The notes beneath the pieces are model-generated. The model did not search any database, had not been told where the DNA came from, and saw nothing but the letters and a program-made list of their open reading frames with translations. Of a DNA stretch of 64,000 nucleotides, positions 28,692 to 32,960 are shown piece by piece. The stretch's first letter is position 1, and each line of letters starts with the position of its first letter. Source of the stretch: Marinactinospora thermotolerans DSM 45154 (GTDB lineage Bacteria; Actinomycetota; Actinomycetes; Streptosporangiales; Streptosporangiaceae); contig NZ_FUWS01000006.1 of assembly GCF_900167435.1 (NCBI RefSeq), positions 124,001 to 188,000 on the forward strand, written 5' to 3'. The position numbers and the translations under genes are program-made.

Positions 28692-28862
28692 CGCGCCTTC
28701 CCCCACCCCTGGTCCGCCCGATCCCCCGTCATCCACGCCGCGCCCGTCCCGGCCTCGGCGTGCCCACCCCTCCCCCTTTCCGCCGTCCCCGTCGCGAGGG
28801 CGGTCTTCCCACGACTTTCCCCAACCCGCCCCAAGGCGCTGGCACGCCGCCGGAGGATCCAC

Positions 28863-28893
28863 TACAGTCATACCGAGTCGAACACTTGTTCGA
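28863..28893 (+). promoter_or_regulatory. Promoter with perfect actinobacterial SOS box (LexA site)
   Basis: TCGAACACTTGTTCGA at 28878-28893 is an exact match to the actinobacterial/Gram-positive LexA consensus TCGAAC-N4-GTTCGA. It lies right after a possible -10 TACAGT (28863-28868) and 20 bases before ATG 28913. LexA bound there would block transcription of the ATPase gene until DNA damage. Confidence 0.8.
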
Positions 28894-28912
28894 CGAAAGG
28901 GGGAGGGGGAAC

Positions 28913-30157
28913 ATGACCACGGCAGCGCTTCCACCGTTCCGGACGGCGGTACGGCACGGTGGGGTCGGACAGGTCCCCCTCCCCCACCCCGACGAACGCC
29001 ACGCCCTGCGCCGGATCGACTGGGCGGCCACCTCATCGGCGGCCTTCTACCGCTCCCTGGAGGCCGCGCTGGACCCCGCGCCCGTGTCCGGGCGTCCCGA
29101 CCCCCTGCACAACCCCTACACCCCCGGCGCGGGTCGTCGCCCTCCGGAGCTCGCCGGTCGCGAGATCCCGCTCCGGCGCTTCGACCTGCTCCTCGATCGC
29201 GTCGCGCACGGCCGCCCCGACCGCAGCGTGCTCCTCACCGGGCCACGCGGGGTCGGCAAGACCGTCCTCCTCGACACCTTCCGCTCGATGGCGTCCGGCC
29301 GGATGTGGGGCACCGGCGGCTTCGAAACCCGTCCCGGCCACTCCCTGCGCCGTCCGATCGCCACCGCGGTGCACACGGCGCTGCGCGAGCTCGCCCCCCG
29401 CCACCGTGCTCCCGAACGCGCCGACCACGCCCTGGGCGTCCTCAAGTCGTTCGTCCTGGCCTCCCCCGCCCCGGCCGCCGGCGCGGGCCGTGGGGCCGTC
29501 CCCCGTCGCCGGCCCGTCGTCGACGCCGTGGCCGTGCGCGGTCAGGCCGACTCCGGCGACCTCGAAACCGACCTCGCCGACCTGTTCACCGCCGTGGCGT
29601 CGGTGGCCACCGACCTCGGCGTGGGCATCTGCCTGCTCGCCGACGAGCTCCATGACGCCTCCCACGACGACCTCTCGGCGTTGTGCGCGGCCTGCCACCG
29701 CATGGCCCGCAGCGGCGCGCCCCTCGTCGTCGTCGCGGCCGGGCTGCCCGACCTTCCCAGGGCGCTGTCGACCGCCAAGGGATACGCCGACCGTCTGTTC
29801 CAGCATCTGGGCCTCGGTCCCCTCGACCGCGCGGCCACCGAACACGCCCTCGTCGCGCCCGCCCGGGCCCGGGGTGTCGCCTTCACCCCCGAGGCGCTCG
29901 ACGAGCTCTACCGGGCCACCGGCGGGCACCCGTTCCTCGTCCAGTCCTGTGGCCGGGCCGCGTGGGACCTCGCGGAGGGGGCGACGATCCGCCGCGCCGA
30001 CGCGCGGGCCGCCGTGGCCGAGGTGAAGGACGAGATCGGCCTACACGGGGACGCCCCCGCCCCGTCCCGCCCGGCCTCCGTTGCCGGGGCGGGCCGTCGC
30101 CCCGGCACGCGTCACGGCCCCGCCGATTCCCCGCCAGGCGCTCACACGGCTTCGTAG
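28913..30157 (+). CDS. SOS-box-controlled AAA/ORC-type ATPase
   Basis: 414 residues from ATG 28913, with GGGAGGGGGA upstream. After an 80-residue leader with a NPYTPGAGRRPPELAGRE entry motif comes an AAA_16/Orc1-like ATPase: Walker A LLTGPRGVGKTVLL (about residues 104-117), Walker B GICLLADELHD (about 243-253), sensor region PLVVVAAGLPDLP, and a C-terminal lid (FTPEALDELYRATGGHPFLVQSCGRAAWD). A disordered Pro-rich tail follows. Similar single ATPases of unknown role occur across actinomycetes. The perfect SOS box points to a DNA-damage or prophage-like role. Confidence 0.85.
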   Translation: MTTAALPPFRTAVRHGGVGQVPLPHPDERHALRRIDWAATSSAAFYRSLEAALDPAPVSGRPDPLHNPYTPGAGRRPPELAGREIPLRRFDLLLDRVAHGRPDRSVLLTGPRGVGKTVLLDTFRSMASGRMWGTGGFETRPGHSLRRPIATAVHTALRELAPRHRAPERADHALGVLKSFVLASPAPAAGAGRGAVPRRRPVVDAVAVRGQADSGDLETDLADLFTAVASVATDLGVGICLLADELHDASHDDLSALCAACHRMARSGAPLVVVAAGLPDLPRALSTAKGYADRLFQHLGLGPLDRAATEHALVAPARARGVAFTPEALDELYRATGGHPFLVQSCGRAAWDLAEGATIRRADARAAVAEVKDEIGLHGDAPAPSRPASVAGAGRRPGTRHGPADSPPGAHTAS

Positions 30158-31014
30158 GGAGCCCTGGCGGCCCCGTCCCCGCCTCGCGCGCGGTCGGACC
30201 GCGACAGCCCGGCGACCTCGCCGAAACCCACCAGCGTCGTCCCGGTCTCGGCGTCGACGATCACGGCGCGCACGCCCGACTTGCCTCCGGTGATCGGCAC
30301 CCCGAACACGACGTCCACGTCCCGCCCGTTACGGCGGCCCGCGAACCGCACGAACCTCCAGCAGCCGTGCCGCCACAGGTCCACAGGTTCGGCCGAGGTG
30401 ATGGTGGCCCGGTTGGACTCCCACAGATCACTGGCGCGCAATCGGGCCATCGTCCGGCGTAGCGGAACCTGACGCAGCTCGCACGGTGTCCGGTGCGTCA
30501 ACCGGAACGCGATCTCCTTGAGTTCCGGCGACAGCGCGCCGAGCACCACGATCTCGGCGCCCAGCACGATCGCGTGGGCCGAGGCGGATCCCAGCAGTGC
30601 CGTCACCCCCGACACCGGCAGGCCGACCGTACTCACCGCCGCGACGGCCAGCAGGCCCGCGCGGGTGATCGTGCGCCAGCCCACGGGTTCGCTGCTCAGG
30701 CCGCCGAAGCAGCCGCACCCCATCTCCGGATCGCGTTTGCGCAACTGGATCAGCGTCACGACCGCCAGGACGAACATCAGCGCGGTGGCGCCCCGGACGA
30801 TGTTCCCCGGCTGGCCCTTCAGCACCAGCAGTCCCACCGCCAGCGCGGCCTCGGTGCCGCCGTGCAGGAGCGCGACGGGCCGGTGGAACCGCACGGGCAG
30901 CAGCCCCGCCGGACCCTGCCCGTTGATGGAGCGGTCGGTGAACTTCGCCGCGGCGCCCAGCAGCAGCATCACGGCGAGGACCAGGAGTTGGATCTCGCGG
31001 ACGACGTCGATCAT
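30142..31014 (-). CDS. MauE/DoxX-like membrane protein
   Basis: 290 residues from ATG 31014. It has four N-terminal membrane helices (IQLLVLAVMLLLGAAAKF; TEAALAVGLLVLKG; GATALMFVLAVVTLIQL; TRAGLLAVAAVSTVGL) and the MauE-type redox motif MGCGCFGG after the third. A soluble C-terminal part follows (residues about 170-290). MauE-like proteins help form disulfides or mature exported cofactor proteins. The start lies two bases after the stop of the upstream Cys-rich protein, which is the likely substrate or partner. The 3' end overlaps the ATPase gene end by 16 bases. Confidence 0.78.
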   Translation of the reverse strand: MIDVVREIQLLVLAVMLLLGAAAKFTDRSINGQGPAGLLPVRFHRPVALLHGGTEAALAVGLLVLKGQPGNIVRGATALMFVLAVVTLIQLRKRDPEMGCGCFGGLSSEPVGWRTITRAGLLAVAAVSTVGLPVSGVTALLGSASAHAIVLGAEIVVLGALSPELKEIAFRLTHRTPCELRQVPLRRTMARLRASDLWESNRATITSAEPVDLWRHGCWRFVRFAGRRNGRDVDVVFGVPITGGKSGVRAVIVDAETGTTLVGFGEVAGLSRSDRARGGDGAARAPYEAV

Positions 31015-31016
31015 GA

Positions 31017-31964
31017 TCAGCCCACCGTCAGGGTCGCGTTGAAACAGCCCGCCTCGGGGAGCCCGCCCAAGGCGATGAAGCTGGTCAGGGTGAGTTGCGC
31101 GATACGGCCCCGCTCCTCGGACCCGCACGTGGCGCAGCGGTCGCAAAAGCGCGCGGTGGCCGATCCGCAGGCGATGACCTGGAGCGCCGCGGAGCGGCCG
31201 GTGCAGTCGTTGCGCAGCCGAAAGGAGGTGCCGATGGACAGCAATGGCAGCGGCGCGCAGCTGGTGACCTGGTCGCAGCCGGGACCGCAGTCGGCGGACC
31301 GGTCGAGCGCGGGGTAGGCCGCGCCGGTCGCGGTCGCCAGCGGATCGCCGGAACGCCCCTCGGCCGGGTCGTACCATCCCACCGTGCCCGAGACCGTCGT
31401 GGGCCGGCGTCGTACCGCGGGCCGGCGCGGCGTCTCCGCCACCGGATAGGGCGGCTGGGAGGACACGGGGATCATCGCCTGGAACTCGCCGTCCTTGTCC
31501 AGCCCGACCGCGTCGAACAGGTAGCCGGGTTTGAGGATGGGGTGGCGCACCTGGATGCGGCCGGAGGAGCGGTAGGGGATGGCGACGACGCTGTTACGGC
31601 GGTCGTGTCCGGTGTCGACCTCCAGGAGGCCGTCCTCCTCCGCGACGATCACACCGGTGACCCGGGCCAGCCCGGACCACACGCGCTGGGCCACCCACCG
31701 GTTGTCGGGGTGGGTGCGGACGATGACGTCCTGGCCGGGGCTCAGCTCGGTGACGTCGGCGACCCGCCCCCGCCACAGGACGCTGTCCTCCGCGAGGACG
31801 AAGCGCTCCTCGCCTTGAGGCGTGGCGACGCTGATCAGGTGCGGGCCGATGTCGACCAGCGTGCCGCGCACGACCCCCGGATCGGGTTCGTCGGGAACCG
31901 GGGCGGTCCCACCGCCCAGCAGGGCGGCGGTAAGCCTGCGGCGCTCCCGCGTGTCCACCGGCAT
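31017..31964 (-). CDS. Cys-rich protein paired with MauE-like protein
   Basis: 315 residues from ATG 31964 (AAGGGGGAC upstream). The N-terminal half is a beta-rich domain (GVVRGTLVDIGPHLISVATPQGEERFVLAEDSVLWRG...VTGVIVAEEDGLLEVDTG). The C-terminal third has about ten Cys (CGPGCDQVTSCAP, NDCTGRS, ACGSATARFCDRCATCGSEERG, GCFNATLTVG) and resembles a disulfide-rich barrel. I see no typical signal peptide, which is odd for a disulfide protein; a different start upstream is possible. No family is recognised. Confidence 0.65.
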   Translation of the reverse strand: MPVDTRERRRLTAALLGGGTAPVPDEPDPGVVRGTLVDIGPHLISVATPQGEERFVLAEDSVLWRGRVADVTELSPGQDVIVRTHPDNRWVAQRVWSGLARVTGVIVAEEDGLLEVDTGHDRRNSVVAIPYRSSGRIQVRHPILKPGYLFDAVGLDKDGEFQAMIPVSSQPPYPVAETPRRPAVRRRPTTVSGTVGWYDPAEGRSGDPLATATGAAYPALDRSADCGPGCDQVTSCAPLPLLSIGTSFRLRNDCTGRSAALQVIACGSATARFCDRCATCGSEERGRIAQLTLTSFIALGGLPEAGCFNATLTVG

Positions 31965-32393
31965 CAGCGTCCCCCTTCCGCGAGTTACGGCTTTGCGGTC
32001 CCTCGGGACCGCAACCGCCATGTTCCCGCACGGCCACTGCGCGGGCGACACGTGCCCGGGGGCCGCGCGTCCGGACATGACGGTCTTTCCCGGCATTGTT
32101 CGTACCAGCCGAGGCCGCCAGAGGACTGACACTCCGACCTATCAGGAAATATTTCCTATGTCGTTCTCACCTCATGGTCTTCTCCTCCGCTCCCCCGCCG
32201 TATCGGCGGATTCGCCGCCGAACACGCCCGTCGGGGGACAGATCCACCTCCTCATCAGGGGACCTGTTTCGCCTATCGGGACGCTCCTCTCACTCGCCCA
32301 TAGATCCGGTTTGTCGGAAGATGGGGCTCTTGTGAGCCGGTGATGACAGAGGCCGTGCGACAGTGAGGGGCGTGAGGATGTGACGAAGAGCGC
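31965..32393. other. Intergenic region before the sigma factor gene
   Basis: This 429-base gap between divergent genes holds the palindrome AGGAAATATTTCCT at 32144-32157, in an A/T-rich patch, and no gene that I can support. Confidence 0.45.
32144..32157. promoter_or_regulatory. 14-bp palindrome AGGAAATATTTCCT
   Basis: A perfect palindrome in a divergent intergenic region, likely an operator for either the Cys-rich/MauE pair or the sigma factor gene. The binding factor is unknown. Confidence 0.4.
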
Positions 32394-32960
32394 GTGTCCG
32401 GGTTCTGGGGACGCGCTCGCGGGAAGCAGGTCGGTGGTCGTGTGGACGGAGCAACGCGGCAGAGTAGGTACGAGGAGTTCTCCGACTACGTCGCCAGCCG
32501 CGGACCGGCCCTCCTGCGCATGGCCCAGTCGCTGACCGGCAACCACGCCGACGCGGAGGATCTCCTCCAGGCCGCCCTGGTCAAGACGTTCTTCTCGTGG
32601 GACCGCATCGCCAATCCGCGCGCCCGCGACGGTTACGTGCGCCGGGCGATGGTCAACACCCAGATCTCGGAGTGGCGCCGCCGCCGCGTGGACGTCTACC
32701 CGACCGACGAGATCCCCGAGCAGCGGATGGACGACCCCACCTGGCAGACCGATCTCGCCGACGCGGTGGCGCGGGCGGTGAACCGGCTGCCACAGCGCCA
32801 GAGGGTGACCGTGGTGCTGCGCTACTACGAGGACATGTCGGAGGCGGAGATCGCGTCGAGGCTGGGGGTGAGCGTCGGCACGGTGAAGAGCACGGTCTCC
32901 CGCGCGGTCGCCAAGCTCCGCCGCGACGCCGATCTCGCCATCGAGCGGGCCACCTCCTGA
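32394..32960 (+). CDS. SigE-family RNA polymerase sigma factor (ECF type)
   Basis: 188 residues from GTG 32394; a GTG at 32439 is an alternative giving 173 residues. Region 2 is EFSDYVASRGPALLRMAQSLTGNHADAEDLLQAALVKTFFSWDRI, with RDGYVRRAMVNTQISEWRRRR. Region 4 is AVNRLPQRQRVTVVLRYYEDMSEAEIASRLGVSVGTVKSTVSRAVAKLR. This is the short SigE/SigM-like group of actinobacteria. No anti-sigma gene follows; the next gene is a tRNA. Confidence 0.9.
   Translation: MSGFWGRARGKQVGGRVDGATRQSRYEEFSDYVASRGPALLRMAQSLTGNHADAEDLLQAALVKTFFSWDRIANPRARDGYVRRAMVNTQISEWRRRRVDVYPTDEIPEQRMDDPTWQTDLADAVARAVNRLPQRQRVTVVLRYYEDMSEAEIASRLGVSVGTVKSTVSRAVAKLRRDADLAIERATS

Follow-up and report, generated by a model that had tools for sequence, protein, structure and literature searches.

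The Orc1-like ATPase gene described here is probably a LexA-regulated, formerly self-repressing gene, present as a derived, fast-evolving copy with a largely intact ATPase core in a 64,000-nucleotide stretch of the Marinactinospora thermotolerans DSM 45154 genome (the window; contig NZ_FUWS01000006.1, positions 124,001 to 188,000). Comparison with its relatives suggests that the gene began as a DNA-binding ATPase silencing its own gene, and that the window copy kept the damage switch alone and lost the DNA-binding part. Judged from sequence, the SOS switch is real, and counterparts of the gene throughout an order of soil bacteria have it too. The gene extends the SOS response of an actinobacterial order by a conserved member that is apparently undescribed, and the predicted binding site of an otherwise unannotated ATPase family makes function directly testable.

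LexA box and promoter

The exact actinobacterial LexA palindrome TCGAACacttGTTCGA lies at 28878–28893 (12 of 12 positions matched), with no other exact match in the window (0.001 expected per 64 kb from base composition); the score of the 18-bp GTCGAACacttGTTCGAC was reached by none of 100 shuffles. Upstream are TGGCAC (28840–28845), a 17-bp spacer and the −10 hexamer TACAGT (28863–28868), taken together as promoter P1 (28840–28868, forward strand), and downstream a purine-rich ribosome site and the ATG at 28913. The ATPase frame (28913–30157, forward strand; 414 aa; stop codon 30155–30157) is open throughout and free of internal stops. The first-pass annotation had placed a perfect LexA box between a plausible −10 and the ribosome site of a lone gene, and this description held in each part: the MauE-family gene that follows is convergent, and operon partners were not found, the neighbours being convergent or lineage-specific. 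P1 was not called by a generic sigma-70 consensus scan, but it is supported because TACAGT or TAGAGT recurs before the box at the same position in relatives (loci L066–L069). LexA bound at 28878–28893 would overlap the transcription start. An E. coli-type LexA box was rejected, the single exact match in the window (50764) being away from the ATPase gene. Positions 30142–32960 hold the convergent MauE-family gene, a gene whose 371-aa product has no match in Pfam, and a gene of the sigma-70 family; this neighbourhood is conserved with the ATPase in Streptosporangiales.

Orthologous loci from Nocardiopsaceae, Thermomonosporaceae and Streptosporangiaceae (56 in number, L066–L120 and L127, one of them a MAG) were searched for the box, the check that the first-pass annotation had proposed. 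In 54 of them the 600 bp upstream contain a box with no more than one mismatch, against a background of about 0.0023 per 600 bp; the other two, both Herbidospora, have a box with two mismatches. Many loci carry a second, weaker box, usually 43–44 bp upstream of the first but 31 bp for Nonomuraea pusilla and Actinocorallia, all of these distances being near whole helical turns. The box was not found in Micromonosporaceae, Jiangella and the other sampled families, nor in four MAGs labelled as or placed near Streptosporangiales (L122–L125); a single one-mismatch box was present in one genome of another family (L215). About 0.1 exact palindromes are expected per genome by composition and three were found, at least one of them inside a gene, but a chance match is scarcely conceivable, position and palindrome being conserved over more than 50 species while the spacer bases vary freely.

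The host genome encodes LexA, with two one-mismatch boxes (TAGAACtgacGTTCGA and TCGAACgtttGTTTGA) upstream of lexA, and contains 33 exact CGAACN4GTTCG sites versus two for the reversed control. Clear intergenic exact sites precede uvrA, recA and the genes for a HEPN_SAV_6107 protein and a DUF6504 protein; most other exact matches fall within called frames. Because the box is conserved before orthologues with a freely varying spacer and also marks recA and uvrA here, the SOS regulation put forward in the first-pass annotation, that is, LexA control of the window ATPase, is strongly supported at the level of sequence. Elsewhere in the same genome (contig C13, L003:1500-1515), an exact TCGAACN4GTTCGA is followed, about 65 bp on, by an ORF that includes MTTNYNTVINNEGPGGQFVIG and has no Pfam match, a possible further SOS gene.

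Protein family and TCTA operator

The window protein matched AAA_16 (Pfam PF13191) with an E value of 1.8e-19 and 71.3 bits (gathering cut-off 32.6), in agreement with its earlier naming as an AAA_16 ATPase, and has AAA+ Walker A (GPRGVGKT, residues 110–117) and Walker B (DE, residues 244–245) motifs. The accompanying label Orc1-like stood in part: the window copy matched TIGR02928 (Orc1-like) weakly (E 0.011, 14.6 bits; cut-off 181.3), whereas the full-length orthologue gave archaeal Cdc6/Orc1 on origin DNA as its top PDB match in Foldseek; RuvB and the archaeal ATPase 2qen were among its other matches. The window copy matched a clamp loader, Orc1 and TnsC; all of these fold matches are partial (TM 0.4–0.5 by query). 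AlphaFold models were obtained with a pLDDT of 90.3 for the full-length Nocardiopsis ansamitocini orthologue and of 86.0 for the window copy, in which residues 382–414 are disordered. NCBIfam, PADLOC and PHROGs gave no identity for the window protein. Orthologues elsewhere start at (M/V)DPVRNPY and end with about 80 residues of winged-helix sequence, and the family consists of orphan AAA+ ATPases of Actinomycetes with a predicted Orc1/Cdc6-like architecture (ATPase, lid, C-terminal winged helix). Distant paralogues are orphan genes, several of them on plasmids (L307–L310). One paralogue (L196) has a different inverted repeat, GCACTTTATTggatccaAATAAAGTGC, before its start, and because this repeat differs, other branches may have operators of their own.

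Most relatives carry a 38-bp operator of four half-sites, TCTA-N6-TCTA-N10-TAGA-N6-TATA, which covers the −35/−10 region of an apparently leaderless promoter and whose fourth half-site is the −10 itself; in lineages without a LexA box this half-site reads GATA, TATA or CATA, follows TAGA after N6 and is part of the −10. Among the sampled genomes, 28 of the 63 that have the gene contain the exact TCTA pattern, and none of the 85 that lack it does (Fisher 5e-13; reversed-pattern control, p 0.83). Most copies in complete genomes are at the promoter and near the 3′ end of the gene, where a second copy is often seen. In Streptosporangiaceae, symmetric 38-bp copies with all four half-sites stand directly at the gene's 3′ end (L048:9359-9396, L055:7685-7722, L056:7684-7721); the Nocardiopsaceae have a copy that ends in TATA, about 0.1–1.3 kb downstream of the gene. 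A role as plain terminators was ruled out for the promoter sites and several 3′ sites, where the N6 arms are unpaired; in Microbispora it is possible because these arms nearly pair.

Winged helix and operator occur together in 126 of 134 loci. When up to one mismatch was allowed genome-wide, no TCTA site was found in four genomes in which the helix is lost or diverged (G000, G200, G428 and G431), versus at least one site at the gene in all five relatives with an intact helix. We infer that the family's own winged helix binds the TCTA element and that the protein therefore represses its own gene. The element is not always private to the ATPase gene, because TCTAN6TCTAN10TAGA is also present between gyrB and what we take, by eye, to be gyrA in six genomes (L249–L254, Micrococcaceae-like family f26); this site possibly links the ATPase to gyrase expression. 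Its occurrence there would also fit a different regulator bound to the element, with the ATPase merely a target, but this is quite unlikely, since among the sampled genomes the pattern is limited to those encoding the ATPase, where most copies lie at the locus itself, and since genomes with a missing or diverged winged helix have no copy left anywhere.

In Streptosporangiales a second promoter, with one or two LexA boxes, lies upstream, and the open frame runs on through the old operator as an N-terminal extension. In these lineages the operator DNA is at the same place and encodes a conserved-looking stretch, FYGNLRRPLYPVIKSES; the upstream promoter precedes the extended frame, and the old promoter and the internal start remain. 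Since the old operator DNA became coding at the same place, the upstream LexA promoter would drive the extended frame, and both promoters are presumably used.

State of the window copy

Compared with orthologues elsewhere, the window protein is longer by 62 residues at the N-terminus and has no C-terminal winged helix. The extension (residues 1–62; 28913–29098, forward strand) is the one found in LexA-box lineages. The former operator and internal promoter lie under its last third, and a degenerate remnant of operator and −10, TCTAccgctcCCTGgaggccgcgcTGGAccccgcGCCCGTGTC, is seen at 29046–29088 on the forward strand, where intact relatives have TCTAccgctcTCTAgaagcggcgcTAGAgacgcgTATAGAGT; CCC (29096–29098) stands in place of the internal ATG/GTG start. 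The place of the winged helix is taken by a low-complexity tail (about residues 379–414; 30047–30154, forward strand), predicted to be disordered from residue 382. No frameshifted winged helix was detected in open frames of at least 100 aa within 1.5 kb, where the convergent MauE frame leaves little room.

Operator and internal −10 are lost together in the window, in Actinorugispora, in the N. potens type and in genome G146. The winged helix gave no match in the first two and is diverged in the latter two (60–94 bits versus about 140), and the second TCTA site is also gone or degraded in the lineage of the window. In the tree these operator-less cases form one group with long branches, set apart from all others by a 100/99 split, and a single event may therefore explain the co-loss of operator and helix.

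As read from these comparisons, the window copy is an atypical, truncated family member, derived and fast-evolving, with an ATPase core that appears largely intact; either its role has changed to that of a LexA-only ATPase or it is decaying. Decay, in which the gene became functionless after loss of the DNA-binding domain and operator, leaving the exact LexA box as a remnant, is the rather unlikely alternative. It would account for the longest branch in the tree (2.37 versus a median of 0.076), the raised dN/dS (about 0.5 versus 0.13 between intact relatives), the low-complexity tail and the absence of the gene from many related genomes within its family, with a 46-residue remnant alone in G008. 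However, no stop interrupts the 414 codons and dN is below dS. Nearly all invariant ATPase residues are kept, including Walker A, DE and the conserved R294 (31 of 36 columns invariant in 43 other sequences, with two of the five lost lying in the missing helix). The truncated form is common to Actinorugispora, and the LexA box is exact in all degraded lineages though its spacer varies.

Proposed history and known systems

According to the history favoured here, the winged helix of the ancestral full-length protein would have bound its own 38-bp element in self-repression. In Streptosporangiales a LexA promoter would have been added upstream and the old operator turned into coding sequence, and damage-induced cleavage of LexA would switch on the N-extended ATPase form. 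In the lineage of the window, LexA alone would control the gene, which would be silent until DNA damage; the ATPase core would no longer bind the old sites, and any activity that it has in the SOS response would depend on ATP-driven oligomerisation or protein contacts. The regulatory path would thus lead from self-repression, through a LexA promoter on top with the operator made coding, to loss of the operator and DNA-binding domain.

A broader reading is possible, though doubtful: bacterial Orc1/Cdc6-like DNA-binding ATPases, with their own 38-bp element once or twice per chromosome beside the gene (or gyrBA), may serve replication or chromosome maintenance, with SOS control gained through the added LexA promoter in one order and the window lineage a LexA-only effector without DNA binding. 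That such a family with its own 38-bp element is undescribed is put forward with the same reserve. Genes which we take, by eye from the sequence, to encode Fpg/Nei-type glycosylases adjoin the ATPase in Micrococcales-like genomes, as does that of what is presumably a PHP-domain protein in Micromonosporaceae; with the gyrB–gyrA sites, these neighbours are circumstantial evidence that would fit a DNA-maintenance role.

An anti-phage component, as also suggested by the first-pass annotation, or a plasmid-type element protein is very improbable. Homologues of about 41–43 percent identity are found on Rhodococcus, Arthrobacter, Clavibacter and Sphingomonas plasmids, and there is a remote match to a PHROG without assigned function; but orthologues occur in 282 of 343 genomes of the family, on the chromosome and nearly always as a single copy, a single unannotated record is phage-labelled, no significant PADLOC match was obtained (best E 0.0063), and no defence neighbours were noticed at the loci.

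No SOS member of this kind was described in the literature searched, in line with what had been stated at first pass. As far as the main text of the study on the Streptomyces venezuelae LexA regulon goes (PMC9380542), lexA and recA belong to the targets of LexA, for which a peak is also seen at uvrA; the same SOS-box sequence class is found at the promoter here, and recA, uvrA and lexA carry the box in the host. A term search of that main text returned no ATPase, AAA or ATP-binding target by name. Archaeal and STAND-type ATPases (ATPase_2, 2qen) have an AAA_16-type core and a G-x-P motif (GHP/GYP) in the lid region in common with the family, which differs from them in having no sensor repeats and in scoring under the Pfam cut-off for ATPase_2 and nSTAND1. 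Archaeal Orc1/Cdc6 (2qby, 1fnn, 2v1u) differ in sequence (about 15 percent identity), with a partial TM-score and a winged helix missing from the window copy, but share with the modelled full-length orthologue the predicted AAA+ core, lid and C-terminal winged helix. Archaeal Orc1/Cdc6 initiators have binding elements beside their own gene, and the TCTA element is like these by analogy.
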